Shown: positions 7,478 through 60,471 of the stretch, in pieces
Position numbering within the stretch: position 1 is the first letter of the stretch
Layout: the number at the start of each line of letters is the position of its first letter
Assembly: GCA_021018995.1 (NCBI GenBank)
Contig: CM037587.1
Location: 91,261,251 to 91,325,250 of the forward strand
Source: Chloranthus sessilifolius
Taxonomy: Eukaryota; Streptophyta; Magnoliopsida; Chloranthales; Chloranthaceae
Direction of reading: 5' to 3'
Length of the DNA: 64,000 bases
The notes under the pieces: model-generated
What the model was told of the DNA's origin: nothing
Database searches by the model: none
What the model saw: only the letters and a program-made list of their open reading frames with translations
Position numbers and translations under genes: made by a program

Positions 7478-7701
7478 GCCTGGCGCAACTAATAGTTGCG
7501 CCAAGCCATTTTCCCCTAGAATTTGCCTAGCGCCACTAATAGTTGCGCCAAGCTTTTTTCCCCTAGAAATGGCCTGGCGCAACTAATAGTTGCGCCAGGT
7601 ATAAATGGGTCCCCCCACCTCTCGTGGAGCCAACTTTCAGGCTACTGTACAAAACTGTTTTACTGTACATTTGCTTGGCACAACTAATAGTTGTGCCAGG
7701 C
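7478..7701 (+). repeat. Four-palindrome array in F LTR (GCGCAACTA type)
   Basis: Four near-perfect palindromes start at 7478, 7525, 7572 and 7673 (spacing 47, 47, 101). The best copy has 13-nt arms CCTGGCGCAACTA and TAGTTGCGCCAGG around a single A. Copies 1 and 2 end AAGC instead of AGGC, and copy 4 is CTTGGCACAACTA with the matching TAGTTGTGCCAGG, which again pairs. They lie about 280-500 bp upstream of the LTR TATA box, in U3. Confidence 0.93.
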
Positions 7702-7981
7702 ATATGAACAGTGACCTCTAGTTTTTGCCTCGAATTTTGAAGCTAGGATTTGACTTGTTGACCACCTCAGTCCTTAAAGTGTATTTTGATAACTCTGTTG
7801 CACCATTTTAATGACTATTGGCAACCCCTTAAGTGGCTTAAAGCCTCACCCCATCATCCACCATTGGAGGACCTTCTCACACATCTCAATGCTCTTAAAA
7901 TCCTAGGAAACCTTATATTAGAGATTACCTAATTGTTAACCCTAATTAGCATCTAAGTAGCCTCCTAACCTACCCTTTTCC

Positions 7982-7989
7982 TATAAAAA
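7982..7989 (+). promoter_or_regulatory. TATA box of F 3' LTR
   Basis: CCTATAAAAAGAGCCCCCC matches the position of CCTATAAATATAGAGGCACC in C's LTR (18465). Transcription would start about 30 bp downstream and define the U3/R border. Confidence 0.65.
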
Positions 7990-8709
7990 GAGCCCCCCAC
8001 CCCTTGGTTTAAGGGTTGAGAATTTTTGCCTAAGAGAGAAAGAGCTTAAAGTGAGAAGATCTTTCTCCCTTTGGTGCACCATTGCTCATACAAATTCCAG
8101 AATTTCAAAACCTCATTCCATGCCATACCTTTCCTAAAAAGCCTCTAGGTTAGGTGTGTGCTATCCATTTGCCTCCCTTCTTTACCTCTTAGCTAGTAAG
8201 CCTTAGTGGTTAGAACCCCTCTTTCCACCATTCAAGCCTTCAAAATCTCATCAAAAGTAAGCCACACAAGGCTCTCCTATGGTACTACAAGGGCCCGAGG
8301 GCTCCGGCTCTCCCCTTCTCCTATCTCTTCCTTAGCTTTTCCTATCCTTCCATTTGTGCCGTTACACCACCAAATTTTTAGTAGGAACAGAGGAGCACAA
8401 ATAAGATTTGAGGCCTATTTGGGCAAGAGGAAGCCATTTTCTTTTCTTTTACTTTATTTTTATGTTGGCCATTAGTAGAGACCGCGTTAAGCAGGTTGAT
8501 CGAGTGCCTAACACCTTCCCGATCGATAATCGAAACCCTACCCGAGAGCCTTTGGTGTGGACCGGATTCAGAGTCATATTTGTGTACTTCGGTGCTTATT
8601 AAAATGATATATGTATCCCGAGACACCAAAAGCTCTGGGTGGTGACTCTATATTTTTGTAAGTGAGTGCATCGTTGTGACGGGATCGTCACAAATCCCAC
8701 GGTTGCACA

Positions 8710-10975: not shown

Positions 10976-12412
10976 TGATCAGTCACATAATTTACTAATT
11001 TATTAACCTTAACTAAGTGATGCTAGATCCCAGTTTGCTACTAACGAGATGTCTATGTGCAGATATTCAGAACATATAGTAGAATATAGCCAAAGTTCCA
11101 ATCTTTGCCAAAGTGAACTCAAAATGCAGTAAGAAAGACGATCGTATGCAAGTACGACTAATGGTATTGAGAACCAGTCCATAAGCCGAAAGAAAAGACG
11201 ACATATGATCAATTGAATGACCAATCGTAAGCTCGCCAGAACGAAAGAAGCCAATAAAAGAGAACAATTGTACTTACGATTCCTCAAAGAGATGTTGAAG
11301 ATTGGAGGACAAAAAGGAGAAATACGATCGATCGAAAGGAAGAAATCATACTAAAGAAGAGAACAATCCTAAATTACGATTGGTCAAAATTGAAGCTCCG
11401 ACTGCCACTGATCACGTGAGATATACACCGCCATGCACAGAATAGAAGATCACTTGAATTAGAAGTTTGGCAACCCAAGGATCTGAGAAGATTGGTGAAG
11501 ATATAAAAGAAAAATCTAAAAAGTCTCTACTACTGAAAACACAGCTAAAAGTCCTACGCGCATCTATCATCCCAAAGCAAGGAAGATTAAAATTAGAAGT
11601 TAGAGTTATATTAGGAATCTTTTATATTTAGTAGTTTTCTTTTATTAGAATTAGAACACTGTTAACCGACTCCTTATGATCTATAAAAAAGAGGGCTCGA
11701 AAGAGGAGAAGATCATCCAAGGAATTTTTAGCATCAATTGACAACTGAGGTTGGAATTTTGAAAGATCACCGTAGAGTAGTTTTTATCAAGTAAAATTGT
11801 CTACAGTTCTCTGAAAGTCTTGCCTGACAATCAAGACCGAAGAACCTGAAAAATTGACCCTTTAGATGGTTTTACTTTTCATTCTAGTTTATATTTATTT
11901 TATTACACTTTACAACTTCGTAAACATCCAATTCTTCTTGATTTTAATTGACGCCTAAAATTGAGAGTTTGAGGATATTAGTGTAACAGTTTTTAGTTTC
12001 CATCTTCAGTTTTCTTGAGTTTGATTGACGCCCAAATTTTGAGAAGATTGTTGATTAGTATAAATCTGTGTTAAGGAAATTTAGTTTTTGATTGACGCCT
12101 AAATTTTAGAGGACTGGGATACGGTGTAATGGTACTTTACTTTTATAAGCATCCGAGAACTGAAGGATTGTGATTGACGACCATAATCTGGAAGGAGGAG
12201 GATTTAGATTTACTTTTCTTGCAAAATTAGTTTAAATCACCTTTCTTTTATTCTTATTTCTCTAGTAGATTAGATTCTTAAAAGATAAACAAAAACTTTT
12301 ATAACACAAAATACACAAAATTTTAACCTTCCTCGTGGGAACGATCCTATTGCTGCAATTTCCATTGTGCGCTTGCAATAGGTTAAGGCTCAGTACAATT
12401 ATAGTCGTATCA
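10976..12412 (+). repeat. 5' LTR of B
   Basis: Begins TGATCAGTCACATAATTTAC and ends ATAGTCGTATCA. It pairs with 62207-63567. The main length difference is about 63 bp, near 11075-11137, missing from the 3' copy. It contains the TATA box at 11682, ATCGTAA/TTACGAT inverted repeats around 11260-11380, and a series of TTGACG boxes downstream of the TATA box. Confidence 0.93.
11682..11689 (+). promoter_or_regulatory. TATA box of B 5' LTR
   Basis: GATCTATAAAAAAGAGGGCT sits where the other B/E LTRs have CTATAAATAAGAGGGCT (41481, 49630, 62849). The shared GAGGGCT just downstream supports a conserved core promoter. Confidence 0.7.
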
Positions 12413-12418
12413 AGTTTT

Positions 12419-17608: not shown

Positions 17609-17973
17609 TGTAGACACCCAAATTTGGCCCAAGGCCCGATCAAAACATACTTCGAGAAAGGCGCACCCCCGAGCTTCCGATAGCACTTCCTGAACCCTTA
17701 GAACTTAACCCAAACCCTTAAAAGTTGATCCCCGACCCTTAGGAATCAACCCTAACCAACCTATAGAACCCCTCCCAAACCATTTTAAACCCTCCCAGGT
17801 AGTGGTTAAAATGAGGCATGCCAAGGCTCTCTGAGACCTCTACTGGAACTAGATCCTATACCATTGGAAAGTAGAGGTTCGTAAGTTTCCAACAAGCCAA
17901 AAATTGCCCCGATCCGAGTCATACATCGAAACTTATGGCAATCAAAAGTTTCGAACAGAAATAAGGACATTTT

Positions 17974-18197
17974 GCCTAGCATGTATAATATACACGCTAA
18001 GCCATTTCTGGAAAAATGTTACCTAGCGTGTATAATATACACACTAGGACACTTTTGCAGGAAATTAGTCTAGCGTGTATAATACACACGCTAGGCAAAA
18101 TCTACCTTCTTCTCCAGAGGTGTGGGTCCCACGGCGGGCTCTGAACTTCTCAAAGGTACTGTACATATGCCTAGTGTGTGTAATATACACGCTAAGC
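17974..18197 (+). repeat. Four-palindrome array in C 5' LTR (GCGTGTATA type)
   Basis: Copies start at 17974, 18021, 18068 and 18169: spacing 47, 47, 101, identical to F. The consensus has 13-nt arms CCTAGCGTGTATA and TATACACGCTAGG around one A. Individual copies carry one to three mismatches. Confidence 0.95.
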
Positions 18198-18464
18198 GTA
18201 GCTACAGTAACTTTGAGATTTTGCTCGAAAATGACTTTTGGGGTTTGACTTGTTGACCATCCAGAGTGGGTTTCTTTAGGACTGTTGCACCCCCATTTAA
18301 CCTATTTACAACCCCCTAGTCATTTGAAACCCCACCCTATCATCTAGCATTAAAACCCCATTTCCACCTATCCATAGCCTTGAAAACTCAAAATCCTTAG
18401 ATGTAGGATTACCTAATTGCAAATCCTATTAGCTTTTAAGTACCCTCCTAACCCTCTCCTTTCC

Positions 18465-18472
18465 TATAAATA
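18465..18472 (+). promoter_or_regulatory. TATA box of C 5' LTR
   Basis: TTCCTATAAATATAGAGGCA is a strong plant TATA box about 270 bp downstream of the last LTR palindrome. The 3' LTR has TTCTTATAAATAGAGAGGCA at 59751-59770. Confidence 0.75.
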
Positions 18473-19191
18473 TAGAGGCACCCCCCTTTACAAATGGCTA
18501 GAAAATTTTTCCAAAGAGAGAAAGATTAGAGATTTCCTTCTCCCCTTTGGTGCACCAAACCCATACAAATTTCAGAATTCAAAACCCTCCCTTAGACCCC
18601 ATCTTCCATTAAAAATCCCTTAGCCTAGTTGAGAACTATCCCCTAGTCTTCTTCTCCTACCTCTTAGCTATCAAGCCTTAGAGGTTAGAACCCATCTTTC
18701 AACCCTCAAGCTATTGGAAGTTCATCAAGTGCACCCACGCGAAGGTCCACAGTTGTGCTACAAGGGCCCGAGAGCTCCGACTCTCCCTTTTACTCATCTA
18801 CCTTATTTTCTTTTTCGTTATCCAAGGATTCAAGTCGTTACAACATCGAATTTTTGGTGTTTGCGGAGAGCTTGATAGGATCATAGTGCCTTCGGGCAAG
18901 CGGAAGTGCTCCCTTTTTATTTTTATTTTTCCTTTCATTTGGCCATAAGTAGAGACCACTTTCGAGCGGGTTGATCGGGTGCCTAAGACCTTCCCAATCG
19001 ATAACCGAAGCCCCTACCCAAGAGCCTTTGGTGTTAGATTGGTGAATCAGAGTCATATTTTTACACTTCGGTGCTTTTAATATTGATTTAGATTTTCCAA
19101 GACACCAAAAGCTCTGAGTAGCGACTCTATATTTTTCCTTACGAGTGCATCGTCACGACGGGACTCGCGAGAGCTCTCACGGTTGCCCAAA

Positions 19192-19209: not shown

Positions 19210-20570
19210 TAGCTTGTAGAGATTCTCCTTGAAGTTTTGGCCTCTTACTTACAGGTATTTTTTATTTTTCTTTTAGCTAACTTTTCTCTCTTTTTTGGCA
19301 TACTTACCCCTACGATTCTATTTGTTTTATACTTTCCCCTACTTTTCTGTCATTTTTACACTAACCCCTACGATTCAGTCATTTACACGCGTTAGCCATT
19401 TGGTGAGCTTACATGAGCATTTACATTTTTGTCATTTACACGCCTTAGTCGATTGACGGACCTACTTGAGCATTTTCATTTATGTCATTTACACCCCTTA
19501 GCCATTTGGCGAGGTACTTGTTAAATCAGCTTCATATACCATCAATGGGCGTTGGCCCCTGGGGGGGCACGGATTTCTCACCACCCATTTTTGAACCTAA
19601 GCAAACTCCCTTTTTAAATTGAATTTAAAATTGAACTTTAAAAGTGAACTAAGGGACTTAATTCATTTTTTTTGTGGGTAGATTTTAAAGGGTGGGAATG
19701 TAGGCAACGGTACAAATGTCTCGGTTCTTAGTACGACGGCAGCCCCTAGTGGTGATGATTCGGAAAAGTACCACCCCATCCAATATCTGAGAAGGTGCTT
19801 GCGCCAGAGGTATATAGGGAGGGTGACCGATCCAATTACAAAGCTTAAAACCCTTTGAGAGAGCATTAGTCATCCCGAAATGACCTTGTATCCCAAGGTT
19901 CGGAGAGGAGGGACCCATTATAACAAAGAAAATCAGTCCCCGGAAGCACCGCTTCCCGAAAACCAAAGAAACAGACCAAATTCGGGCCTGCTGTTTGCTG
20001 TAAAAAATGTTTATATAATCTGTTTTTGCCTAGCGTGTATAATATACACGCTAAGCCAAAATCTCTATATTTTTTGCCTAGCGTACATAATACACACACT
20101 AAGCCTATTTCTGGCTGGGCAGCCCGAAACTAAGGCCTTTTTTCACTTCTCCCGAGTCCCCCGCTTAGCGGTTTAGTGCCTCCAATAGATCCCACACGTT
20201 CCGACACCCAATACGCCATCGCAAGTCAAAAGAGGTCACCCTCTTATTGACTTTTTTCGAGGGATCGGGTTGCCGCGTGGATTTTCATACCTTCACATAA
20301 AACAAAGGTTTTCCTTTGTTTCTTTCGAAGCACTCGGGGTCCCGCCATGAGAAATATTTGGGGTATAAATGCCGCCCGAAACAGGAATTCCAAGGCCCCG
20401 AAACTCATCGTAGAAAGGTTCATTTTCTTTATCCAAAAATCAAAATAAACAAAAAAATTGAAAAAAATTAAAATCCAAAAAGAAAGATAGCTAGTGGTGC
20501 CGGCACAACAGCATCGCCTTACCCTCCGTCATCCCATAGGGGAAGGAGAAGATGGGTTTTTAGTCCTCAC
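19210..20570 (+). other. Leader of C
   Basis: No convincing gene. The stretch contains T-rich repeats with 'catttacac' words (19340-19500), the two palindromes at 20028-20105, and an A-rich run at 20425-20490. Short frames on both strands have no recognisable domain. Tat/Ogre elements often carry a long leader or an extra upstream frame here; none is evident. Confidence 0.6.
20028..20105 (+). repeat. Two palindromes in C leader
   Basis: Copies at 20028-20057 and 20076-20105, pitch 48 bp. The first has a nearly perfect GCGTGTATA/TATACACGC pair. The second is decayed (GCGTACATAATACACACACT). Both are the LTR motif of C outside the LTR. Confidence 0.9.
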
Positions 20571-22170
20571 ATGAGGTACCCGTACCCAACCCACCAACAA
20601 ACCATGTCGTGGGCAGTTGATCCGGCTTATGCCAATCCTGATTCATCACCGCCACGCTCTCCAACACATTCCCATTCTGAGGAGATTCCTACCTTCGTCC
20701 CACTCATCCCCATTTTTCGTTGCCGAGCCCTTCGGTGCACCCATATTTCCATCCACCTCCGCCACAATCTCTCAAAGTCCATCCCATTCTTCCCCCATAG
20801 CCACTCTGAATCCCCCCTCCACAGCTAACATACCCAACTTTCCCTCATTTTCCCAAAATCTAACAGCTCATTCCCCACTATCTTTTCAAACCATATCCCA
20901 TTCACCCATATGTTCCCAAAATCCAAATTTCACCCAAGAAATACCCAATTTTCCTACACTTACACATACTATCCCCATTTTTTCAAATCCACCACATATC
21001 CCCCCATCTACCCAGGCCATGCACAATTTCACCTCGGCCATGCCCAATTTTTCCCATACACCCATCTCATCCATTCCCCACATTCCCCCTCCATTGGATG
21101 CTCCATTTACTTCCACCCCTCCACCCAATCCAATGGCCATGATGGACGAAATGGTCAGGGCTTATACAATTTGAAAGGCCTCTCAAAGCAGCATCCCTCA
21201 TCCACACCACACATCTCCCAACCCATCCTATACACTCCCAAGTCTCCATGCCTCTTTTCCCCAAGACTCCAATCAATCCCCCATTATTCATACTGCCCAA
21301 GACCCCCATTAACCATGGGGTCATTTGAGTGGGCCTCAAGGCCCCATAACCTATGTCCATCAGGGCCCCATACCCCAAGCCCACCAGGGCCCCATACCCA
21401 ATCCCATCAAGGCCCAATGGCCCAACCCCAAGCCCATCAGGGCCCCATACCCCAAGCCCACCAGGGCCCCATACCCCAAACCCATCAAGGCCTAATGGCC
21501 CAACCCCAAGCTCATCAGGGCCCCATACCCCAATCCCATCAAAGTCCAATGGCCCAACCCCAAGCCCATTAGGGCCCCATGCCCCAGCCCATCAAGGCCT
21601 AATACCCCAAGCCTACCAAGGCCCTATGACCCATACCCAAGCCCATCAAGGCCCACACCCGAGAACCCCACTCACCCATCCTCCCTCATTCTCCCGATAT
21701 CCCACCTACACCCAACAGGCCCCAATTCCACCCCAAATAGTGCACCCATCTAGTCAATCTCCCAACCCGGCATGGGCCCTATTCATCCACAACCTCATAC
21801 CCAATCTAATATGGAAATCCATCCCATATCATCAACCACCCTCAATTCACCCACCTCCATACCTCTCAGACCCCTCCCCAAGGATTCCCCCATATATAGT
21901 GGTCCCACCAAACACCCATTCAGCCTACTTAGAACCAGTAGGATAATCTCACCCTCCCTCCACCATATATAGACCCACAGTATGAGGAGGATGAGATCAA
22001 GAATAGTGGAGCCTATGTAGGGGCATTTACTAGCTTCAATCCCCCACCACCCATATTCACTAACCCACCGGTAGTCCAAAGTGAATGGAGGCCACCTGTT
22101 GAGGGACCGACCCCACCATCCAAAGAATTAGAGCTGTTGAAAGAACAAATGGACAAGATCCAGAAATAGC
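20571..22170 (+). pseudogene. Proline-rich N-terminal part of C gag
   Basis: The frame opens at ATG 20571 and continues, with frame changes, as an extremely proline-, serine- and histidine-rich sequence. The central part is the HQGPIPQ minisatellite (21353-21660). The end reads ELLKEQMDKIQK at about 22130-22167, a short helical segment directly before the capsid domain. Tat gag proteins often have long low-complexity N-termini. Overlapping open frames on the minus strand (20886-21549) are mirror images of the C-rich repeat. Confidence 0.6.
21353..21660 (+). repeat. Minisatellite coding HQGPIPQ in C gag
   Basis: About a dozen imperfect units, mostly of 24 or 27 bp, of the type CATCAGGGCCCCATACCCCA encode HQGP(I/M)(P/A)Q with a short spacer. 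An alternation of GPIPQ and GPMAQPQ units suggests a higher-order repeat. Confidence 0.9.
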
Positions 22171-42289: not shown

Positions 42290-42307
42290 TGGTGCTGCTG
42301 CCAGGGA
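42290..42307 (+). promoter_or_regulatory. Primer binding site of E (tRNA-Asp type)
   Basis: TGGTGCTGCTGCCAGGGA, four changes from the Athila consensus TGGCGCCGTTGCCGGGGA; same distance (6 bp) from the LTR as in B. Confidence 0.78.
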
Positions 42308-42574
42308 AGTGGATTTATCTAATTTTTTCAAGTTTTTATCTAATATTTTTATCCTTTTAGAAACCAATATTTATCTTTCTCTTTTATATATTTTTATATT
42401 TTTATTTTCTTTGTTCACTTCTTAAATCTTTTGCAAGTTTGTTCAGAGCAGTGAATTACGAGTCTCCAACTTCTCTTAATCACAAAAGCCAAACTTAGAT
42501 TTGTCTTCTCTCGCTGCTCTTCTAAAATAAAAATTATATAAATATTAAATACAAAAAGATTTACTTTCTAGTGT

Positions 42575-44346: not shown

Positions 44347-45690
44347 ATGAGTGGAGGAATGATGAACAAAATGGGTAAAAGACAGAGAGAAGAAGAGGAA
44401 GAAGATGAAGGTAATACCTTCGATAATATCCCAATTATTCAATGTATTATACAGATTGCTGCCATAAAGGCTAAATCAAAAGCAATAGATCATTCTCAAA
44501 GGACGACTAAGTCTTTAGGGGTGGTTATCCGAGAAGGTCCCACAGACAGAATCGAAAAAAATCTTGTGTCTGCCCCTGAAAAGTGCTTGAAAGTAGATAA
44601 AGGAAAAAGGCCAACACCCTCTGTTATGATAGCAGATGAGGTTCCTCCTTCAATAAAAAATCATATTGTGGGTATTGAAGTTGCAGTGGATGTCCTAGCC
44701 TTAGAAAAATTAGAAATGGGTGGAGAAGCTATAAAGTACTTCAAGGATGTCGAATTAACCTATTTCCTGGAATCCGGAGTCACACCAGTCTATCCCGGAT
44801 TGGTGAGGCTATTTTACAAAAATACGACTAAAAGCAGCCAAGGATTGCCTCATACCCTCTCCACCAGTGTTGATGGGCTTCCGATTGAAATTTTGAAAGA
44901 AATGATTGCCAGGGTTATGAATGCACCTTTAGATATACCACAATTATCCCAAGATAACCCTAAGGCAAATTTGTTGAGAATGCCACCCGAGACCCTCCCT
45001 TGTTTCACTGATATGCAAAAGAATTACTAGGAAAACCCCCGCAGGATAGATCCTTTTTCCTTAGAAAAAATTTGGAAGCGAGGAGTTTGCCCCTTTACTT
45101 CTTTGATGTGTTGATACATAAGACCATTCACCCCACTGGACATGGAACTCAGAGAAGAACACTCTTTGTCAAGGCATTGTACCTTATGCCAAATCGCTAT
45201 TGGTTCAATGTACCCTCATATCTTCTTGGAATCATCATGACCGTAAGGGACAAATTTGGTCAAGAAAAATTCCAGACGAAGAAGCTGACCTTGCCATTTG
45301 GAATTCTTATAATCAATCTACTAATGAACGTGGGTTACAGTATAAATCTCACTGAGAAAGCCTTACCAAGACCAGAGGAAGGCTTAACAGTCCAGTCTTA
45401 TAGGAGAAGTTTAAATGTAGTGAATAAAAAGAAAATACCACTAGCCCCTCGAACCAAACAAACACCCTCTATCCCAATTGACATACCAATTTCCAAAGAA
45501 AGAAAAGAAAATGTCATGGAGCAGACAATTGGAAGAGTGGTAATGGAAGAAGGTGAGAGTACTTCTACTCCACCCCGTGAAAAGGAAAAGAGTAGTTCTC
45601 CAATTCAAGAGAGTGTGTCCATGGAGAGAATACCAATCACAGACCAAGCTAGTCGGTTGACCCCACTCTGGACTCTCCAATAGGGCCTGT
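44347..45690 (+). pseudogene. Second gene of E: 'putative plant transposon protein'-like
   Basis: Best preserved copy of the family. ATG 44347 begins MSGGMMNKMGKRQREEEEED, a basic-acidic start that may include a nuclear signal. The domain follows: GIEVAVDVLALEKLEMGGEA, IKYFKDVELTYFLESGVTPV, YPGLVRLFYKNTTKS, LSTSVDGLPIEILKEMIARV (44670-44920). After a frame break at 45030 come LPLYFFDVLIHKTIHPTGHG, TLFVKALYLMPNRYWFNVPS, LPFGILIINLLMNVGYSINL (45080-45350). A P/S/E-rich linker follows. It resembles PF20167 as I remember it. It is a sister of B's gene (14837-16312), and its core recalls D's extra gene (31614). Confidence 0.78.
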
Positions 45691-46960
45691 TTTGCCCACT
45701 TTAACTGAGGCAATTACATTGCCTGGTACTTCTGAAGCAGAGCATCAGAGAGAGGAACAACTAATTGAGGTGATTACTTCTAGCCAAGACACAGAACAGG
45801 TGGAATTAGTTATCCCATCGACAGTCTCAAATGATGCAGGAATCAAGCCAGTAAAACCTAATACTATACAGGAACAACCAATTTTGGCACCAGAAGAAAT
45901 ACATACAATGCCAACCCCTATGTTGGAACCTATAGGAGCAAGCCAAGAAATCACAGTTCCATCGCTGGTAGATTCTATGGTCACCACCACCACAATAACA
46001 GTATCCCAAATGGCAGAGCCAAGACTACACACAGAAGCCCCAAGAGAGAGCTTCAGTGCACTCTTACATCAGGCTATGACAGTTCCAAATCCTACTTCAA
46101 TAGTCCTAATAACTAAACAAAATGATCTAGAAAGGAGACTAAAAGAAGTAGAACAATGGCAAATTTCAATGCCCAACTGCCAGATGTCGTAAAAAGAATG
46201 ATGGATGAAATTCAAATGGATGAAATCCAAACATTGAGAAATAGAATACGAGAAAATATGCCTACTGCGCATGAAAAGCAAGAGATGATCGCAAACATTA
46301 AATAGAAGGCAATAAAAGAATATCAGGTGCATTAGATAACTGAAACAAACAAGATGATACAAGAAGAAACTGCAGTCCTCAGAAACCAAGTTGCACAGGC
46401 ACAGGACGAAAATAGGTTACTGAAGGAAAATCATCAAGAGTGGGAAAGAAAAGGAAGAGCATACCAGGATAAAATTCCTCAGCTAACCAATCAAGTGGCC
46501 GAATTCATGAACTCACAATAGCTCAAGGGAAATTACTTAAACTACAAGAAGAAAAGGAGTCCCTGATGCTAATGTGTGCTGAGCGAAAGGAAAAAATTGA
46601 GTCCCGCATTAAAAATTACTAGGCCATTGTAACAAAAGAAAAGGCTATTTCTGATAAGCTAAGGGTGGAAAATGATGCTAAGTATGCTGTAATTCGCCAA
46701 CTTCAGCACAAACAGGCCATGCTAGAAGCAGAATTGAAGGCCTTGAAAGTGACATATGAGCAAGAGGAAATAGAAAAGGGGAAACCATAAGCACCATCTA
46801 AGGAGGAAGTGGAACGTGAACAAGAAAACGATTCTGACTGCGGTACTGCAGAAATATCTCACTCTGATGAAGACTGCATGAACAGCCTGGTTGGTCTAAC
46901 AACTTCACCACATGTACACTCAAAATCAATTGTCCCATATCCTGCATCCCCTAGTGAGTA
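45691..46960 (+). pseudogene. Linker and coiled-coil part of E's second gene
   Basis: Acidic T/P/E-rich linker (LTEAITLPGTSEAEHQREEQ, QEITVPSLVDSMVTTTTITV), then NDLERRLKEVEQWQISMPNC parallel to NEWERRLLEVEKWQ in B. A long helical stretch follows: MIQEETAVLRNQVAQAQDEN, RLLKENHQEWERKGRAYQDK, QHKQAMLEAELKALKVTYEQ. It ends PYPASPSE plus TAA 46958-46960. Stops and frame changes are frequent after 46190. Probably one protein with the preceding domain. Confidence 0.7.
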
Positions 46961-48948
46961 AACCTTTAAACAGATCACGAACCTCACAGGTAGAAAAAAA
47001 AAAAATTTGACAATTGTTGTATATATATCTCTTTTGACTTTTTTTTTTTGTTACTAACATCACTAACATTTTTTTTATTACTAACATTTTTGTTATTGAA
47101 GCACCGAGCATTAGCCGTGAATATTTTCTCTCAAGTTTGGGGGAGAATATATATCTGGTATCAGATTTTTTTTTCGATTCATAATCAGCTGATCAATAAT
47201 TTACGATTAAAAAAAAATTTGTATGTCCCATGTTTTGCACAATGAGGACATTGTCCTATTTAAGTCTTGGGGGATACATCATATTAGTTTAGTTTTCTTT
47301 TTCGATTAGTTGAGTTTTCTTTTTTATAGAAATTTTAAATTTTTAAAATTTTAATTTTTTTTTAGTGAATCATTATATGTGATTTATTAAAAAGAAAACA
47401 TATAAAAGATCCATCAAAGTAGTAGTTCAAAAATTAAAATTAAAATAGTTGCAATTCAAAGTAAAGCATCTCTAGAGCACTATATCAGAGAATGTTTGAA
47501 ATTATATGATTGATCTGAACTACATATATTTTAGATTATAGTTTTAAAATTATATAACCAGTGAGTTATAGAGCCTATTTCCTCTTTTATTCTAAAAAAG
47601 AGAGACTATTTTTATTCATGCTTAAACTTCTTTGAAATTCTCTGCTATGTGACATCTCATACTGGTGAACTTAGAATCAATATAGTCTGTGATGATGATG
47701 ACTTATTTGTTTAGAACTGTCTATTAAGTATATTAAAAGAATAAGACATCCATATTAGTAAATCGTGAGAATAACCAAAGGCCATCTTTTGTTAAACTAG
47801 AGCCAAAAGCCTAAAGCCTAAAGCCTACATTTCTTTGTACCAAAATTTATAAACCTTAACCATATATACTGCCCAAAGCTTTCTATCCTTAACCCTTGCA
47901 ATTTCTGAGAAGTTTAGAATATAAAAGAAGGGAAGAAAAAGGGAGTGAAAGGAATATGAATTAACAGATAAAGGATCTGCTGAAAATGGTACAAGCAAAA
48001 AGATATACAATTGTAGAAAAATATGAAAAAAAAAAAAAAGAAATAGAAAAATCGTAAAAGATGATTCTTTGAAAAAAGAGAAGCAAAAAACTTCAAACTG
48101 AAGAAAAATGGGATTTACAAAAAGAAAAGAAATGGGAAGAAGATATCCGATTTATGGATACTTACTGAAGCTGAAAAATAGTAGAAGAAGATAGGAAAAA
48201 GAAGAGCTGAAATTCTCATAAATAATTTTGAATCCTCTTTACCTTTTCTTTGAAACCTTCTAAAAATCCAAAACCCCATTACAAGCTGAAGGAAAGGCCT
48301 TTGAGATTTACGATTTATAAAAATATGAGTCTAGTAGAGATATATCAAGTAGATAGTAGGAATAAATAAGGGAATCATAAGAACAGAATTGATTATCTTT
48401 TCATGAGATTTACCTTTCTAATTGATTGTCCTCTGAAATTTATCATATATATCGAGAGAACCCAAAAATTTCGATTATTTTTTAGAGTATGCCAATAAGT
48501 GAGAGTTTGGATGAAAATATTTTCTAAAAACTACAGTTTAGAAAAATCTATGATGAATAAACTCTTCATTGATATGCACACACTCTGCTCTATACTGAAT
48601 TGAAATTGTTGAGTTCTGGTAAAGGATGATTATGATGATGGAAAGCTAGTGATAAAAGATTTGAAATATTTTAAAATAGTGAACATATAATGACTAACTG
48701 ACTAATTAGTTTATATTTTGAATTTTTAGTTTTGAAATTTCTAAAAATATTTAAAGTTTGCAGGAAACTTCACTAAAAACCTTCATGAGATGACAACTCC
48801 TCCACTAGAGATCACCTAGGGTTTTAAAGGCTTGTTGTATCTGCTAAATGCAATCATGCTCCCTATAAAAGTAGCATTTAAATTTAAGTTTTAAATATTT
48901 TATGTTTCCTTGTTTACTAGGAACTAACAAAACTTAAGTTTGGGGGTG
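46961..48948 (+). other. 3' noncoding tail of E with three PPT-like tracts
   Basis: No gene is seen in these 2 kb; the stretch is AT-rich with T-runs. CTCAAGTTTGGGGGAGAATA (47130-47149) and TTTAAGTCTTGGGGGATACA (about 47258-47277) both resemble the terminal tract CTTAAGTTTGGGGGTG (48933-48948), which primes plus-strand synthesis at the 3' LTR. The stretch aligns with B's tail at 60472-62206. Confidence 0.75.
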
Positions 48949-50423
48949 TGATCAGTCACATAATTTACCATTTTATCACCCTTAACTTAGTGACGCTAGG
49001 ACTTAGTTTGCTACTAGCGAGTTACTGATGTGCAGATATTAGAGATAAGAAGTAAATTAGAGCCTAAGTGCTAATCTTTGTCAAAATAAACTCAAAAGGC
49101 AATAAGAATGACGACCAAACAAAAAAGACGATTTGCCACTACTGAAAGTCAGAAAATCGTAATTTACAATTCTTTAAAAGAGACAAAAAGAGAAAAGCGA
49201 TAAAGCGTAATCCAAAAACTCGTCAATTATGAGGAAGCTATAAGAAATAGAAAGTCATAATTAACGATTCTCTAGAAAGAAGCTATGAAAAACAGAAAAT
49301 CATGATTAACGATTTTCTAGAAAAAAAATGATTATCTAAAGTTCTCCTTGTTACTGTTGCTAATCACGTGAGTGAAAATTGTCACTGACATATCCAAAAT
49401 TAGAAGATCTATATAATTAGAAGTCTGATGGATCACGGATTTGAGAAGATTGATGAAGATTGATATTTCGAAGAACTCTGCTATTGCTCGATAAAGAACA
49501 CTCTAGAAGCGCATCAACTAAAGGAAGCAAGGAAAGATGAAATTAGAAATTATAGTTATATTAGGATACTTTTATTTTTAGTAGTTCTTTAATTAGAATT
49601 AGATCTCTGTAAATCGACCCCTTATAATTTATAAATAAGAGGGCTCGGTATAGGAATAAGCATCGAGGAATTTCAGTATCAATTGACGCCTGAGGTTGGA
49701 TTTTCTTCCGATCAAGTAGTGTATACTAGTTAGAGTAGTTTAGATATCAGAGATTTCCAAGAGCAATTGACGACTATAATTGAGTGTTGAAGATTTGTGT
49801 TTAGTTTCTCAGGAGCACTTGACGACTGCAGCTGAGGGGTGAAAGATATATTTATTTGCTTTCTAGTTTAGATTTATTTGCTTTGTAAACATCTCTAAGT
49901 TTTGATTTGAATTGATGACTCTGGTTAAAATTTGCATATTAGTGTAACCGTTTTTACTTTTCCATCTTCAGTTTGCTAGAGTTTAATTGACGCCCAAATT
50001 TTTGGTTAATTATTCACTAGATTAAATATGTATTGATAGGATCTTAGACTTTATTGACGACCAATGCTAAGAAACTTGATATATGGTGTAATGATACTAT
50101 TTATTTTTATAAATATCTAATAGCTGAAGATTGAGATTGAAGACCTTAATATGAAGAAGGAGGATTAGGATTTATTTTTATGCACTTTAGCTTAAATAAA
50201 TATTCTTTTATTCATATTTCTCCAATAGATTAGGAAAGCTTAAAGATAAATAGATATTTTTAAAATAAGGATTTGAATGAAAGATAGCAATAGAGAAAAC
50301 TTAGATAATCACTTCCTCGTGAGAACGATCCTAATGCTAGAGCTATAATTTTCATTATGCGCTTTCAATAGGTTAAGACTTGAGTTAAATATAAATATAA
50401 GATACAGTAATCAAGACCGACCA
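48949..50423 (+). repeat. 3' LTR of E
   Basis: Begins TGATCAGTCACATAATTTAC and ends AAGACCGACCA. TATA box at 49630-49637. The inverted repeat AGAAAATCATGATTAACGAT followed by TTTCT (about 49295-49319) is close to perfect. Confidence 0.94.
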
Positions 50424-52130: not shown

Positions 52131-52370
52131 AAAGGGACGGCTCTTGTAAAAGATAATAAATTTCCCTTTCCCATTTTCATGCGCACTATGTACACGACCA
52201 CATCTCGAAAGGGACGACTCTTGTAAAAGACAATAAATTTCTCTTTCCCATTTTCATGCCCACACTATGTGCACGACCACATCTTGAAAGGGACGACTCT
52301 TATAAAAGTTAATAAATTTTCCTTTGCCATTTTCATGTCGGCACTATGTGTACACCACATCTCAAAAGGG
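52131..52370 (+). repeat. Tandem repeat of 77-79 bp in C tail
   Basis: Three units starting at 52134, 52211 and 52290, each GGGACGACTCTTGTAAAAG ... CCATTTTCATGCC ... ACACGACCACATCT. A decayed fourth follows at about 52435-52500. A shorter CTATGCAAAAAGTATGTGCA repeat lies at 52584-52695. Confidence 0.9.
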
Positions 52371-52702: not shown

Positions 52703-54316
52703 TCAACGACCCAACTCGTGCTTCAAGGAACGGATCTCTGCATGTAAAGCATCCTCCCGAGCATTTCGATATGCCATCCAACGGCCATGAAGGCTCGTAT
52801 ATCGCTTTCGGGAAGCATCAGTAGCACCAAGAGCATCACCTAGGGCTCCTTCCAGACGAAGGACCTGACACTCTGCAAAACCAGCTCTTGCTTCTGTAAC
52901 ATCTACTCTAACATTGTGTTTCTCCAAACATTCATGTAGGACTTGTTTCTCATCTACCAAAAGCTCAATCCAGGCTCGAAGAGCCGACTCCTTCCTCGGC
53001 CAAGGCCCCTCTACACCACTGCTCTCCACCTGATCCAGGCAATGGACAAAAGGCCTCTTAGATAGCAGCCAAGTCTCATACCCCGGAGAAGTCACCAAGC
53101 CGCACATATGCGTCGACTGACGTGTCTCTGAAAGAGCATCTATCCCGTCCAAGTCCCCAGAGGACTCCTAGAAAATATCAGTCCGCACAGGGGAGGTCTC
53201 TCCAAATAGGGCACCTGCTGAGTATAATCAAACTGACGCAGCACCCAAGAGGGAAAATAATAGGTACTATCAGTCAAGCCAAGAAGGGTGATGCCCTCAT
53301 GATCTCTAAATCGAACTACTGGAAAGGTCATGTCCAACCATGGAAGCCTCCACACCAGTTCAGCCTCAGCTAGTCAAAGTTTCAGCTCGCATATATTCCC
53401 TTGTGGCAACCTATGGCATCGACCCAAAAAGAAGCAAGCTGCCTCCCCATGAATCACATAAAAGCGATGCACAGGCCCCAAAATGGCAAGATGCTCCCCA
53501 AGCCAAACCTAGAGCAGAACAAGGCATCCACGGAGGCACTCCACCTTTCCCAAAGAAAAAGCGTCGAGACAGCAGTAACGCTCCGCCAGTACCATATGCA
53601 TCACAGAGCGGCCCCCCTCAACCTCCGCCAGCATATCGCAAAGTGAAAGAGAGAAGCTCCCCCCAGTGTAGAAAAGGACCGCTGAGAGAAGGCAGAGAGC
53701 GAAAGCTTTTACATTATCGTGTTTCTAATTGGCAACTTTTGCAAGCTTTCGCCGCCAAAAAGTTCTCTTAGAAATTTCATCAAACACCTGGTGGGCCCAC
53801 CGACAAGGATTTTCTCATAATCAGCTTTCTTCAAACCTAAAGTCATGTGGACGGCTTTAGCATAACCCAATTTTGGTACTACCCTAGCAAGGCCTCTAGG
53901 CAGCTTCAGGCCTGATAGGTTGGAGAGCTCTTTAAGAGTGGGAGTTAGCTCACAGTTCCCAAAGCAAAAGATATGGCTATTCACGTCCCAATTCGAAGCC
54001 GCCGCGTAAAGGAGATCCCAAAGCAAAGGAATATCAAGGAAAGATGGGAGACGGGTTAGCCCAAATTGATCCAAACTCACAAGCACGCCCTCGTTCAAAC
54101 TATCGAGCCATTTCTTCAAAAAACTGAGTCCCCCTCCCAAAGAGGGAGGTATAAAGGTCCCGGCCCCCCAAGAGAAGCAGGGTCAGAGTACGGGTCCATG
54201 GTCATACAAAGATGTTTAATGGAATCACAATTCAATGTAGGACAATGGACCCACCCTTGGAAAAGAGAAAAGAAGAAAATGGGAGCAAAAATCCAAAACC
54301 CAACTAAAGATAACAA
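52703..54316 (-). pseudogene. Antisense gene 1 of C: DUF7745 / plant-mobile-domain-like
   Basis: Minus strand, opposite to C's own genes. It probably starts at ATG 54205 (MTMDPYSDPASLGGPGPLYL). After a frameshift near 54130 it continues LLYAAASNWDVNSHIFCFGN, CELTPTLKELSNLSGLKLPR and LKKADYEKILVGGPTRCLMK (53709-54010). Then, with stops, come MLAEVEGGRSVMHMVLAERY and the block LLGLTDSTYYFPSWVLRQFD (53215-53300), and a helical C-terminus LGATDASRKRYTSLHGRWMA, EDALHAEIRSLKHELGR ending at 52703. The FxFGxxEL-xPTLxEL and VLRQF blocks are typical of plant mobile domain / DUF7745 proteins. Function in the element unknown. Plus-strand open frames here are shadows. F has no equivalent. Confidence 0.72.
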
Positions 54317-54364: not shown

Positions 54365-54538
54365 TACCTAGTGTATGTAATGCGCACGCTAGTTCAAAAT
54401 CTCCCAGATTTTTCCTAACATATATATTACACACACTAAGCCAAAGAACCCCCAAAAAATGCCTAGCGTGTATAATATACACGCTAGGCCAAAAAAATGC
54501 TCAGATTTGCCTAGCGTGTATATTACACACGCTAGGCC
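54365..54538 (+). repeat. Four palindromes upstream of antisense gene 1
   Basis: Copies start at about 54365, 54412, 54461 and 54509, pitch 47-49 bp. The third is a perfect CCTAGCGTGTATA-A-TATACACGCTAGG palindrome; the others carry changes. They lie 50-220 bp upstream of the antisense gene's first possible start. Confidence 0.93.
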
Positions 54539-54976: not shown

Positions 54977-57870
54977 CTAATTAGTTCCCTTGGTCCTCTT
55001 TTGCCGGCGTGAGATACTCTGATATGTCCGTACATCCCCCACCCATGACCATGCCTGGGACAATCTACTGAGCAATGAATGCAACTCCTTCTCACGAGCA
55101 CGCTACAAGCATCACGCCCAGAGGTCAGTTAAGGACAGTCAAAAGTCATAACAGTAAAGTGACAAGCAGAACCAAGTAGTGTCATACTTACCACTTTCAC
55201 ATCCCGAAGGCCAGCAATATCACGGTAATATTTCGCCTGGTTGATAGTCGACTCATAATCTTGCAATGAGAAGAGAGAAAGAGAGGTCAGTTGCATGGGA
55301 AATGATACAAGAGCAAGCATGTCCTCAAAATAATAGACAGAAAAAAAATCTCACCCCTGGAACCAACTCAGGAGGAGTGACCCTAATTGCCTCAGTCGAT
55401 AGACAAGCTCGCTCTGCCACATCAGCACACAGGCCCGAGAGGAGTGCGTCGTCAAAACACCTAAAGGTCCCTTGAGTCTCTACGATCAAGGTTCCTAAGG
55501 CCCCCGCACCAAAAGGGTCTGAAGGTTCTGCACCTGACACCCCTGCAGGACCCGCTTCTGCTACGTCCTCATCAGAATCCTCCTCTCCCTCAAACTAAAG
55601 AAAGTAGAAATCCAGTCAGTATGGAAAAATCAAGACAGACAGGAATTCACATACAGGAGAAAGAGAAAAGAGGAATACCTGAGATCGTGGGCCTCCGAAT
55701 GCTAAAAAGTTGGCACCTGGTACAAAGTGTGGGAGGATGGACCGATAGGGAAGAGACTCATACCACATATGATACCCCCATGCTTGAAGAGACCATCAAC
55801 AGGAAGCCCATGATGAAGGAGCCCATCTGTAAGCTCCTCAATCGTACCCTCCAGTGACATAACATCCCTGGGAGGACCCTGTGACATCGCAAAATAGTCC
55901 TGGTACTGATGTACCACCCTCTCCCTGAAATAATACGCCCTAACCCAGGAGCCATAGAAGAAGATGATGTGACGATCAATGAACAATTGGGACTGGCCCA
56001 CAGCAACACGGTCCCATAAGGGGGAGCCAACATAAGGATCAAAAGTAATCTGCTCAGAAAATAAGAGTCCTATTAGTCAAGCAACACCATTTAAACCCCA
56101 AGAAAGGATAAAGAGAGAGAGGGGGGGATCATTAAATCAAACTGAGACCTCAGGCCCAGTTCTAGATGCTTCAACCCCAAGTCCCTACGACAACTCTTAT
56201 GCCAACAGCTCATAAGAGGGTACGTGAACTTGTCTGAGAGGAGGAGGGGGCGGCCCGACTGAAAATATAAATACCCCCAAATCTAAAAGGACGAACAAAC
56301 AGGAAAATATGTCAGAAGCAAGCTAAAAGATAAACCATGAGTGATAAAAGAGTTAAAAAAGTCACCTCGATCGCAGGCCAAAAGCCGAGAATGGAGGCCA
56401 CATCCCCAATTGAGGCTGTGGCCAAACTGGCCATCAACACGACGTACCCAGCACCCCCTAGTCAAAATGGTGCACGTTCTCCTAGTTTCGCGTCAGACTA
56501 AGGAGGGATAGCGAGACCCGACCACCACTAACGTTGGCAAGAATAGTCTTACCCGGCAGGAAGAGGAGTGAGATATGGGCTACATCAGTGCACGCTCAGG
56601 ATCAATGACAATGTCCATATCCGGCTCGTTCGGATCCACCAACTCGTCAGTGTCGAACTGGTCTGCCAGCCAAGATAGCTTGACCTCCGAGCCGGTCATA
56701 TCCTGGGAGGTGGGGTAATCCTCGATCAACTCAACCACCTCTGCACGATCTGGTATGCAGGGAGGAACCACTGGTATCCTTCCTATCCTGATCCCAGTAA
56801 TCATAGACCAATCCATAGGAGTGATGGTCATCTCAACTATGGACATGTGGAAGGTCATCATCTCAGGCCAAAATCGCTCCACCAGGGCCTTCACGTAGGC
56901 CTTGTCCCCCCTCATAGATGGGCATGACAAGAAGCCCCCAAAGCCGGTCTGAGCCAGGAGGAACTTCATGACCAAAGGAAGATGAGTGTAGAGGCGCTAG
57001 AGGTCAAACCAATCGCCGCGGAACATAATAGGGGACAGAGACTGCATCAAAAGATTAACGAGTATCAGATTCAAGAGAAAAAAGGGTCCTAACCGAAAGA
57101 AACAACCAAGAGATACTGCTTTTACCTGACCGGCTATGTTGAAGTTGGATATATGGGTGCACTGCTGATGGAGTAACCCGCTGCGGGCCGCGTCGCCCTG
57201 CATCTCATACCAGGCACGGGAAGAGTGCTGCACCTGAATAAGGCGCTCCCCTTTGATGCCATAGATCACATCCGGACCACCCTCATGGCCTTGGTCCTCT
57301 TCGCTTGACATCCTAAAAGGGGAACCTGCAACAGGTATATAAAAATCATCATCATCATCGACCAAAATCATAATCAAATTATCAAGGGCGTTGTTAAAAA
57401 TATCAAATCGAAGGAAGGTGAGTATGCTTCTCTCACACTAGAATTTCTCCAAAAAAGGTGCATCCAATAAACAAAAAAAATCATCAGGTCATAAACCCTT
57501 CAAAAATCTTTACAAAAATCCTCCCAAATTTTTTGGTTAAAAATCCCCACAATGCATGCGCATTGAGATTATGGGTGGAGATAAAAATCACGTTCTTCCA
57601 CCATTTATGGTCCAGAAATCATATTCACATTTGTATGGAGGCAATCAAGAATTTCAAAACAAAGTTCATCCATTTTCTAAAAAGAGTTCAATAAAGATCA
57701 AAATACACTTTTTTTCATGCAAATGGATGCAACTATCATAAAATAAATCACACATCCAAAGAAAATCATTTAGATCCAAGAACCCTAACCACATTGGAGA
57801 TAAAAGAAGATAAATCAAAGGAAAAAGGGTTTTAAATGATTACCTTGAATGAGAAATAAACCCTAGAACC
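54977..57870 (-). pseudogene. Antisense gene 2 of C: plant mobile domain protein with introns
   Basis: Minus strand. The leader ends CTAGGGTTTATTTCTCATTC then AAG|GTAATC (donor at 57843). The intron ends CCTGTTGCAG (57326), and ATG 57311 begins MSSEEDQGHEGGPDVIYG. Exon 2 ends GQ|GTAAAA (57126) and exon 3 starts after GATGCAG at 57041. There follow SLSPIMFRGDWFDL, one TAG, then GDKAYVKALVERFWPEMMTF, HMSIVEMTITPMDWSMITGI (56780-56900). Decayed further exons include GAGYVVLMASLATAS and FIDRHIIFFYGSWVRAYYFR. The exon DYESTINQAKYYRDIAGLRD ends in GTAAGT, and the last exon (55102-54977) ends SISRRQKRTKGTN and TAG. The E-M-T-I-T-P-x-D-x block is the plant-mobile-domain signature. Host PMD proteins (MAIN/MAIL1 in Arabidopsis) act in transposon silencing; the role here is unknown. 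Confidence 0.82.
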
Positions 57871-58912
57871 GGCAAGAGGAAGCGTGATTAATCGGCAATG
57901 ATGAACAACGACGCGATGTTGAGGTTCAAATCAAATCAAAGGAGTACAAGGAGAGCCTTCCGGTTCAGTTTAAGATAGAGGGGGGAGGAAATTTTTAAAA
58001 AACACCCTTTTTTGCTTAAGCCCGGCCGATTTAAGGCACTTTTTGGCCTAGCGTGTATAATATACACGCTAGGCATAAATTTGCCAGATTTGTCCTAGGG
58101 TATAATATACATGCCTGGCATAAATCCTCCCTTGCACACTTGGTTTCGTCTTTCAAGTACACAGTATATATAAAAAATAGAAAAAGAAGAGAAAAATAGT
58201 GGCATAAGTCCTAAGAAGCGCGTCAACTTCCATTCAACCCGCTGGAAGGATTGGGCTAAAATAAAATGTTAGGGACAATGAGCATGCTTAAAGTCCTAAA
58301 AAACAAACATGAAAAAAGAGGAGAAAACAATAAAAAAAAATGTGACTTACCGCCAACGGCACACACTCCCAAAAGGCATTGTGACATCAATATTCGCTCC
58401 GCTTCGGTAGATGTGCTAAATTATCTTCGAGATCGACGATTTCACTCAGAAACCTCGAACCCTACCTCACGTAGGGGCACCCGTAACCAATCGAATGAGG
58501 CAATCAATGCCTCATACGATTGAACACAAACTGTGGATCTTTGCATCTTTGTTTCACGCCAATCTTTAAGTATGGGTCGATCACCCCCCGCTCGCAGGGT
58601 TGTTTTGTTCAAAATGAAACTCAAACATCACACCTCATCAAATCATATCAAGGAGCGGACGTTTTTCCCAGCATATTGGACTTTCACAACTCACACCATC
58701 TTGGTAATGCCCAGTAATGTCGCTAAGTGCTTAGAAACCAATAGCCTTGAGGAATTGACTTTTTCTCGATATACAGGGCTTTCATGTACTCACCATGTTA
58801 CCATTTGATGTTTTAGGTTTTCTTTCGGACCAGTTAGCGTGCCTTGGGCCTCTTCGGATGTCTTTTTCTTTGGCATTCGATCATTAGTGATAGAATACCA
58901 AAGAGGGGTATT
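57871..58912 (+). other. 3' tail of C, last part, with PPT
   Basis: Contains the upstream region of antisense gene 2 (palindromes 58046-58119). From about 58390 it carries noncoding sequence shared with F (6590-7100). AAAGAGGGG at 58900-58908 is the polypurine tract next to the 3' LTR. Confidence 0.7.
58046..58119 (+). repeat. Two palindromes upstream of antisense gene 2
   Basis: The first (58046-58074) is a perfect CCTAGCGTGTATA/TATACACGCTAGG palindrome. The second (58092-58119) is decayed with a deletion (CCTAGGGTATAATATACATG). Pitch 46 bp. They lie about 170-250 bp upstream of the leader's CTAGGGTTT. Confidence 0.93.
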
Positions 58913-60471
58913 CGTAGATACCCAAATTCGATCAAAACATACTTCAAGAAAGGTGCACCCCCGAGCTTCCGATAGCACTTCCCGGACCCTTAGAACTTAA
59001 CCCAAACCTTTAGAAGCCGATCCCCGACCCTTAGGAATCAACCCTAACCTATAGAACCCCTCCTGAACCCGCTTCAATCCCTCTCGGGCAGTGGTTGAAA
59101 GGGGGCATGCCAAGGCTCACTGGGACCTCTACTGGAACTGCATCCTATACCATTGGAAAGTAGAGGTTCCTAGCTTTCCAACAAGCCAAGAATCACCTTG
59201 ATGTCATACACTAAAAGTTATGGCAATCTGAAGTTTCTAGCAGAAATAAGGACATTTTGCCTAGCGTGTATAATATACACGCTAAGCCACTTATGGAAAA
59301 ATTTGTCCTAGCGTGTATAATATACACGCTAGGCCACTTTTGCAGGAAATTGGCCTAGCGTGTATAATACACACGCTAGGCAAAATCTTCCTTCTTCTCC
59401 AGAGGTGTGGGCCCCACGACGGGCTCTGAACTTCTCAAAGGTACTGTACATATGTCTAGCGTGTGTAATATACACACTAGGCTTAGCTATAGTAATTTTG
59501 AGATTTTGCTCGAAAATTACTTTGGGGTTTGACTTGTTGACCAGCCCAATGTTTAGGGTGGGTTTCTTTAGGACTATTGCACCCCCATTTAACCTATTTG
59601 CAACCCCCTAGCCATTTGAAATCCCACCCTATCATCTACCATTAACCCCATTTCCACCTGTCCATAGCCTGGAAAACTCAAAATCCTTAGATGTAGGATT
59701 GCCTAATTGCTAATCTTATTAGCTTTTAAGTACCCTTCTAACCCTCTCCTTTCTTATAAATAGAGAGGCACCCCCCTTTGCAAATGGCTTGAAAATTTTT
59801 CCAAAGAGAGAAAGATTAGATATTTCCTTCTCCCCTTTGGTGCACCAAACCCAAACAAATTTCAGAACCTCCCTTAAACCTTAGCTTCCATCAAAAATCC
59901 CTTAGCCTAGGTGAGAACTACCCCCTAGTCTTCTTCTCCTACCTCTTAGCTATCAAGCCTTAGAGGTTAGAACCCATCTTTCAACCCCTCAAGCTATCAG
60001 AAGCTCATCAGGTGCACTGACACAAAGGTCCATAGTTGTGCTACAAGGGCTCGAAAGCTCCAGCTCTCCCCTCTACTCCTCTACCTTCTTTGCTTTTTCG
60101 TTATCTAAGGATTCAAGCCGTTACGCCACCGAATTTTTGGTATTTGCGGAGAGCTTGATAGGATGATAGTGCCTTCGGGTAAGCGGAAGTGCTCCCTTTT
60201 TATCTTTCTTTTTCCTTTCATTTGGCCATAAGTAGAGACCGCTTTCGAGCGGGTTGATCGAGTGCCTAACACCTTCCCGATCGATAACCGAAGCTCATAT
60301 CTAAGAGCATTTCGTGTTAGACCGATGAATCAAAGTAATATTTTTGTACTTCGGTGCTTTAAATATTTATTTAGATTTTCTGGGACACCAAAAGCTCCAG
60401 ATGCGACTCTATATTTTTTCTTACCAGAGCATCGTGGCGACGGGACTCATGAGAGCTCCCACGGTTGCACA
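58913..60471 (+). repeat. 3' LTR of C
   Basis: Begins CGTAGATACCCAAATTCG (TG changed to CG) and ends GGTTGCACA. Followed by GTTTT, the target duplication of ATTTT with one change. TATA box near 59755. Confidence 0.93.
59259..59482 (+). repeat. Four-palindrome array in C 3' LTR
   Basis: Copies near 59259, 59305, 59352 and 59453, the same spacing as in the 5' LTR. The second is a perfect 13+1+13 palindrome. Confidence 0.95.

Follow-up and report, generated by a model that had tools for sequence, protein, structure and literature searches.

The closest described counterparts of the sequences discussed here are the RM boxes of Sireviruses, a group of Ty1/copia long terminal repeat (LTR) retrotransposons in which palindromic motifs sit in the unique 3′ (U3) part of the LTR, mostly beginning 200–400 bp into the LTR, on the upstream side of the TATA box (PMC2829016; this and all other papers given by PMC identifier are cited from excerpts of their text). 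RM boxes number 3–14 per LTR, and their letters vary between Sireviruses while the symmetry stays. They also occur in the linker of nine Sireviruses that bear ENV, mostly before that gene, and are absent from the linker of four that lack it; the 2010 Sirevirus paper, in the excerpts used, infers their role from position and symmetry (PMC2829016). A second system, the VANDAL DNA transposons and their VANC proteins, has TE-specific (transposable element-specific) short motifs in noncoding tandem clusters, with letters that differ between related elements and copies that diverge together (PMC5735166). In a window of 64,000 nucleotides from the plant Chloranthus sessilifolius (contig CM037587.1, positions 91,261,251 to 91,325,250), two related retrotransposon families, designated F and C, carry an array of four palindromes in U3, and the two arms of these palindromes have for the most part changed together between F and C. 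All results given here cover this one 64-kb window and these two families. We read the palindromes, with a probability of about 0.6, as a cis-regulatory array of dyad-symmetric DNA sites for a homodimeric protein, kept matched by selection while the recognized block changed. The LTRs and arrays on which this reading is built are as follows.

7107–8709, plus strand: 3′ LTR of F, of which the window holds the 3′ part of one element; ends TGTAGACACCC...GGTTGCACA, TATA box at 7982
7478–7701, unstranded: U3 array of F, four palindromes with first bases 7479, 7526, 7573, and 7674; arm CCTGGCGCAACTA
17609–60471: element C, related to F; its LTRs are 88.5% identical to each other
17609–19189, plus strand: 5′ LTR of C, TATA box at 18465
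17974–18197, unstranded: U3 array of the C 5′ LTR, four palindromes at 17975, 18022, 18069, and 18170; arm CCTAGCGTGTATA
58913–60471, plus strand: 3′ LTR of C, TATA box at 59755; first base C, against T in the other LTRs
59259–59482, unstranded: U3 array of the C 3′ LTR, four palindromes at 59260, 59307, 59354, and 59455

Each of these homologous LTRs carries four palindromes at spacings of 47, 47, and 101 bp, just as the original prediction for this DNA had it, and the pattern holds at 12 of 12 sites. The palindromes of all three LTRs share alignment columns 376, 423, 470, and 571, and their symmetry mostly extends one base beyond 27 bp to give 29 bp. When up to one mismatch is allowed, the F-type arm matches 6 times (0.06 expected) and the C-type arm 22 times (0.04 expected). 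A scan that fixed only the letters common to F and C, with at most five mismatches and at least 8 of 13 arm pairs, returned 18 sites in the window, compared with 0–2 in each of 20 Markov sequences and zero in 16 of the 20. The distance from the LTR start to the array is 372 bp in F, 366 bp in C 5′, and 347 bp in C 3′, and that from the end of the array to the TATA box is 282, 269, and 274 bp, respectively, which places the arrays in U3. A second TATAAA string in the F 3′ LTR lies at 7600, immediately 3′ of palindrome 3. Position in U3 at 347–372 bp after the LTR start, a place 5′ of the TATA box, and four copies per LTR are all features shared with RM boxes. The letters are different: the CGG-CCG core found in 12 of 13 Sireviruses in the excerpts of PMC2829016 is absent from both arms, CCTAGCGTGTATA and CCTGGCGCAACTA. 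F and C are also Ty3/gypsy elements, and C has antisense open reading frames (ORFs) where Sireviruses have ENV. Because neither the core nor the Ty1/copia type is found, F and C are not Sireviruses; their array would nonetheless appear to work in a closely parallel way, in another superfamily and with other letters. U3 regulatory repeats of the Ty1/copia elements Tnt1 and Retrolyc1 likewise vary between otherwise similar elements, although the account of them cited in the excerpts of PMC2829016 describes no mirrored change.

As had been proposed, the consensus arms of F and C differ at positions 4, 8, 9, 10, and 11, and four of these five positions form one block, 8–11. The proposal that symmetry and spacing are selected or homogenized is partly supported, but the accompanying idea of a sequence that can switch freely goes too far, since 8 of 13 arm positions and the center are constant, with outer CCT.GCG and center TAATA common to F and C. 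The complete lack of common letters at positions 8–11 of the consensus arms is what one would expect if F and C had gained their palindromes independently. We consider such a double gain extremely improbable in light of the equal number, alignment columns, and spacing, the common outer and central letters, and a position-2 arm mismatch at site 1 that F shares with both C LTRs (7479–7505, 17975–18001, and 59260–59286). There are further departures from symmetry. Site 2 of F has arm-to-arm mismatches at position 4 (A/G), position 9 (C/A), and position 2 (C/T), and sites 3 and 4 of C have an A/G mismatch at position 11 in both LTRs. Site 4 of F has an extra mirrored change, with A at position 7 in both arms. 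As a weak side observation, the site-1 mismatch looks as if an old mark had been kept at that site while the inner block switched; the same mismatch is also seen in F site 2 and in the copy at 20029 described below.

The mirrored changes were counted over 52 arm pairs (4 sites × 13). Between F and the C 3′ LTR, 27 pairs are unchanged, 5 are one-sided, and 20 are two-sided, of which 17 are compensated; for F and the C 5′ LTR the corresponding counts are 25, 6, and 21, again with 17 compensated. The original wording, in which every change is matched in all four copies, thus overstates the case. Independent drift was simulated at the observed divergence under four settings of 20,000 runs each and gave 25–26 one-sided pairs and 2.8 to 5.5 compensated pairs, with a maximum of 15 against the 17 observed. 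Even if the array is treated as one effective site, zero one-sided together with five compensated pairs has a chance frequency of 0 to 3.5e-5 in simulation. Sliding the same statistic along the F–C LTR alignment placed the palindromes at ranks 1–4 among 858 gap-free positions (5, 5, 4, and 3 against at most 2). Among 18 of the 20 copies in F and C, two decayed ones (54414 and 58095) being excluded, pairing holds in 90.2% of cells. The covariation score for these 18 copies is 0.327; 500 shuffles gave 0.176 ± 0.020, and slid registers gave no more than 0.114. This test of compensatory change between homologous sites sets the present analysis apart from the RM box paper, in the excerpts of which no such test was seen (PMC2829016). 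In having clustered noncoding sites that diverge in concert, F and C resemble the VANC motifs. They differ in that VANDAL is a DNA transposon for which VANC binding and demethylation have been shown experimentally (PMC5735166), whereas F and C are known from sequence alone; the stem "palindrom" does not occur in the excerpted VANDAL/VANC text.

The two LTRs of an LTR element are identical when inserted, and those of C serve as a control for drift after insertion. They differ at 7 of 108 palindrome bases (0.065 per base, compared with 0.104 outside). All seven differences are transitions and none of the seven is compensated, which means that drift in this very sequence breaks pairing. The mirrored changes between F and C should have arisen while new copies were still being produced and were subject to selection or homogenization. 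The statement that drift of a dead repeat would not explain the pattern is borne out on both counts, by a number of compensated pairs beyond any simulation and by the C LTRs themselves, and the pattern is better read as selection on a dyad-symmetric site. Mostly mirrored changes between families, set against unmirrored changes in drifted copies, provide evolutionary evidence that the symmetry matters, here in Ty3/gypsy.

Palindromes of the C type also occur within C outside its LTRs, in the leader and in the linker between pol and the 3′ LTR. These copies, which had been missed before, are listed with their neighboring ORFs and with the corresponding linker of F.

20029–20103, unstranded: leader pair of C at 20029 and 20077, spacing 48 bp, 5′ of the first long plus-strand ORFs (from 20472)
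53712–54205, minus strand: antisense ORF 2 of C; predicted start and long open stretch in different frames, that is, broken
54367–54536, unstranded: linker cluster of four in C, at 54367, 54414 (decayed), 54462, and 54510
55702–57311, minus strand: antisense ORF 1 region of C; open stretches broken by stops, predicted start at 57311
58047–58121, unstranded: linker pair of C, 58047 and the decayed 58095; antisense ORF 1 is predicted to start about 740 bp farther along the minus strand
5473–7106, plus strand: linker of F, from pol to the 3′ LTR

Six of the internal copies were found by the scan (20029, 20077, 54367, 54462, 54510, and 58047), and the decayed 54414 and 58095 were assigned by eye and spacing, the latter with 11 of 13 arm pairs mismatched in that register. 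Their spacing is again 47–48 bp. The 27-mers at 59307, 54462, and 58047 are letter-identical, as are those at 59260 and 20029, and the center base is inverted in 54414 and 54510. In Sireviruses the RM boxes form a CpG island; here the observed/expected ratio of CpG is 0.54 for F, 0.79 and 0.82 for the C LTRs, 0.85 and 1.18 for the internal clusters, and 0.57 for the window. A TATAAA string at 20364 lies 261 bp 3′ of the leader pair (the distance in U3 is 269–282 bp) and marks a possible internal promoter. Read along the minus strand, the linker cluster of four precedes antisense ORF 2, which is predicted to start at 54205, by about 160–330 bp, and minus-strand TATA-like strings near the linker clusters fall within or beside palindromes or at 57341. 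Antisense ORF 1 matches the Plant mobile domain (PMD; PF10536, E 2.9e-9, 56580–56996) and passes the cutoff of that model, and antisense ORF 2 has weak DUF7745/PMD similarity (E 0.012 and 0.036) under the curated cutoffs. The F linker had no palindrome copy and no Pfam match in the 10 scanned of its 18 ORFs of at least 50 amino acids, and its part at 5473–6545 gave no match to the C linker at E <0.01. Antisense ORFs between pol and the 3′ LTR were found in C (with PMD) and, by these comparisons, not in F, and linker palindromes co-occur with an accessory gene to the extent that two elements can tell, C having both and F having shown neither.

This layout invites comparison with Retand, a Tat element that has a long region between pol and the 3′ LTR, antisense ORFs suspected of DNA-binding regulation, and tandem repeats (PMC11963269). 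C is like Retand in its Ty3/gypsy pol, the long pol–3′ LTR region, and the antisense ORFs, and unlike it in the content of those ORFs: TRP28 is found in antisense in 97% of Retand clusters according to the excerpts of PMC11963269, while C has PMD and the weak DUF7745 similarity. No match to PF04195 (TRP28) was obtained in six antisense pieces of C, the ORFs being broken, and DUF1985 was not among the Pfam matches of the C pieces scanned; a protein search at E 0.001 with two antisense pieces returned no homologues. "Palindrom" appears in the excerpted text of PMC11963269 solely in a cited title, and U3 palindromes in Retand are not reported there. The reference list of the same paper, as excerpted, names an accessory gene of Grande with its own promoter. 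More generally, U3 palindromes in Tat elements were not evident in titles and abstract openings of the open-licence papers listed in literature searches, the full texts of which may hold such a description.

Several results weigh against selection on dyad-symmetric sites. With the array treated as one effective site, at least five compensated pairs taken alone have a chance frequency of 0.0006 to 0.012, and independent switches between F and C may number one. Two of five covariation measures are not clearly above shuffles; pairs with two-sided change number 7 compared with 4.9 in shuffles (a value reached by 47 of 500), and the number of pair types is 15 compared with 15.4 (reached by 382 of 500). 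Divergence between F and C is 0.42 per base in the palindromes, 0.45 in the local flank, and 0.33 in the whole LTR outside the palindromes. Since the palindromes have diverged about as much as their flank, it is not the letters that are specially conserved but the symmetry and the place. The spacings of 47, 48, and 101 bp correspond to no whole number of helical turns, the linker clusters lack a TATA box at the U3 distance, and the antisense ORFs have approximate gene models. Finally, spacer 1 is similar to spacer 2 within each LTR, at z 6.2 for F, z 4.8 for the C 3′ LTR, and a weak z 2.1 for the C 5′ LTR, and the spacers of F compared with those of the C internal clusters reach z 1.4 to 4.4 (spacer 1) and −0.4 to 2.9 (spacer 2).

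The likeness of the spacers, together with the 47-bp tandem repeat that copies 1–3 form in F and both C LTRs, is what concerted evolution would leave behind. Under that explanation a new palindrome had a single origin and reached the other sites through slippage, unequal crossing-over, template switching during reverse transcription, or gene conversion, and its symmetry was not selected. The F array was indeed probably homogenized in part as a 47-bp tandem repeat. However, copy 4, which stands 101 bp off with its own flank TACTGTACAT common to F and C, has switched too. The internal clusters of C bear the C-type palindrome without the spacers of the C LTRs (z at most 1.9 in 20 of 20 comparisons), and the internal spacers are alike among themselves (10 comparisons, z 0.8 to 3.8). 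A palindrome that is letter-identical, in its best copies, in internal clusters lacking the LTR spacers is not what copying of the whole 47-bp unit would produce. Concerted evolution also does not by itself account for the matching of each arm to its partner, and we regard it, as a complete explanation, as somewhat unlikely.

If the palindromes are instead dyad-symmetric sites under selection, each palindrome of 27–29 bp would be a homodimer site in U3, with the TATA box of the LTR promoter about 270–280 bp downstream. In C, where this site also precedes the first sense ORFs and the two antisense ORFs, one trans-acting protein could then control all transcription units together. On the branch between F and C, the inner half-site block (positions 8–11, plus 4) would have changed while selection for dimer binding kept the arms matched. 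A dimeric reader needs a dyad site, and a change of the block must therefore hit both arms, as is mostly seen. A specificity change of one protein, a change of binding protein, and homogenization of the array could look the same with two families to compare. The reader would be a host transcription factor, which is the more likely candidate, or the PMD product of C itself.

One named host candidate is a NAC dimer, for the C arm contains TAGCGTGTA and hence the NAC core CGTG in inverted repeat. NAC proteins recognize CGT[G/A], and palindromic NAC sites of the pattern CGT N7–8 ACG exist (PMC4081100). The gap in the C site is 11 rather than 7–8, and the F arm has CGC instead of CGT and would need another reader, so a NAC dimer strikes us as highly improbable. 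Among other sequences considered, the "DOWN" motif CATGCAGTTT of MAIN/MAIL1 targets, as excerpted from PMC9899485, is unlike the arms by eye. An arm string also matches a sugar-beet HinfI satellite, without the mirror arm in the excerpt of PMC2820488, and was taken as chance; the remaining matches of six arm strings to paper text were unrelated, judging by title.

We consider it unlikely that the palindromes are read by a dimer of the antisense PMD product, which would give C a self-encoded operator system turning on its LTR promoter together with its sense genes and its two antisense genes. PMD proteins function in gene and TE control in Arabidopsis (PMC7156037, PMC9899485), and whether the PMD protein complex touches chromatin is stated to be not known in the excerpts of PMC9899485. 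Were the PMD product the reader, F and C would represent two specificity classes, each blind to the other, in which protein and site had changed in step. The system would parallel VANC and its motifs, but in retrotransposons, and F, lacking the gene, would rely on a helper. In any case, the presence of the site ahead of the LTR promoter and of both sense and antisense ORFs, one antisense ORF encoding a PMD, defines a specific protein and a specific site as candidate partners.

The original prediction had offered either a dimer-binding site with switched specificity or an RNA hairpin, and of the two it is a dimer-binding site that the evidence favors. Folding of the array into hairpins or nested duplexes, for example as a source of small RNA, could also keep the arms matched. 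In silico, both arrays form nested stems (−112.7 and −110.0 kcal/mol per 241 nucleotides, computed with no shuffle control). LTR palindromes of maize Sireviruses were reportedly proposed by Bousios in 2016 as a small-RNA source. Sirevirus LTR palindrome motifs are small-RNA mapping hotspots in the excerpts of PMC5311732. The mismatches in the 18 copies show no preference for G-U on the plus strand, with 10 G-U against 19 A-C (p 0.14), a pattern that lends the hairpin no support. The inverted center base in 54414 and 54510 hardly matters for duplex DNA, and a hairpin that attracts silencing would be expected to be selected against in the element. A maintained RNA or single-strand structure is therefore decidedly unlikely in our estimation.

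The assignment of F and C to Ty3/gypsy comes from their pol domains. C has RVT_1 (1.5e-7) and RT_RNaseH_2 (2.8e-11) at 38699–39241, RVT_3 (7.4e-14) at 39600–40220, and rve (1e-11) at 40354–40878, and F has RVT_1 (1.9e-8), RVT_3 (5.6e-16), and rve (2.3e-14) in the same order. The integrase lies 3′ of the reverse transcriptase in both, which is not the Ty1/copia order. A reverse transcriptase, an extra RVT_3-type RNase H, and then an integrase fit a Tat-like element, the additional RNase H being what we take to be the Tat marker. The sense ORFs scanned in C and F gave no match to a Pfam gag model, and the putative gag of C is assigned by position alone to its first long plus-strand ORFs, from 20472. 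The sequence TGGCGACTC, which adjoins the C 5′ LTR on its 3′ side, is presumably a primer-binding site. The 5′ part of F lies beyond the window edge. A protein search with the F integrase gave 1551 matches, with at most 66% identity among the 120 listed; in that list the named species are eudicots (e.g., Theobroma, Cajanus, Trifolium, and Mucuna) except for one bacterial record, Solirubrobacter. No integrase loci were obtained from the viral and genome contig collections, and the exact C palindrome had no match in the genome contig collection. Two viral-contig records that matched the shared-letter pattern were judged chance on inspection of the sites. Rfam at the gathering score and ARAGORN found nothing in the sequence.

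Repeat-pair analysis shows the window to be filled with plant LTR retrotransposons nested in one another. By the same analysis, C contains E1 (23511–35755) and E2 (40799–50423), and the host of C is element B, with LTRs near 10976–12413 and 62140–63568. E1, chromovirus-like by its RVP_2, RVT_1, and SH3_Tf2-1 matches with no chromodomain match seen, has palindromes of its own, ATTGATCGATTT...AAATCGATCAAT, with 6 matches compared with 0.15 expected. Three lie in its 5′ LTR (24113–24373) and two in its 3′ LTR (34011–34275), 233–236 bp before the TATA boxes. One more lies in its linker (31184–31350), with a TATA string at 31359, 9 bp beyond the end of the palindromic stretch; farther 3′ there is a weak match to a fragment of Transposase_32 (E 0.058, below cutoff). 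E1 suggests that palindromes in U3 plus linker are a recurrent layout. The B and E2 LTRs (10976–12413 and 40799–42283) are related, 70–82% in patches, and showed no palindrome array; the 3′ LTR of B contains a single palindrome, at 62528.

Two tandem repeats inside C complete the description of the window. Retand linkers are reported with tandem arrays (in excerpts of PMC11963269), and 3′ of pol in C there is a 79-bp tandem repeat of 3.1 copies at 52131–52370. In the 5′ sense ORF region of C, at 21336–21655, a further tandem repeat has units of 23–77 bp, and its translation is proline-rich.

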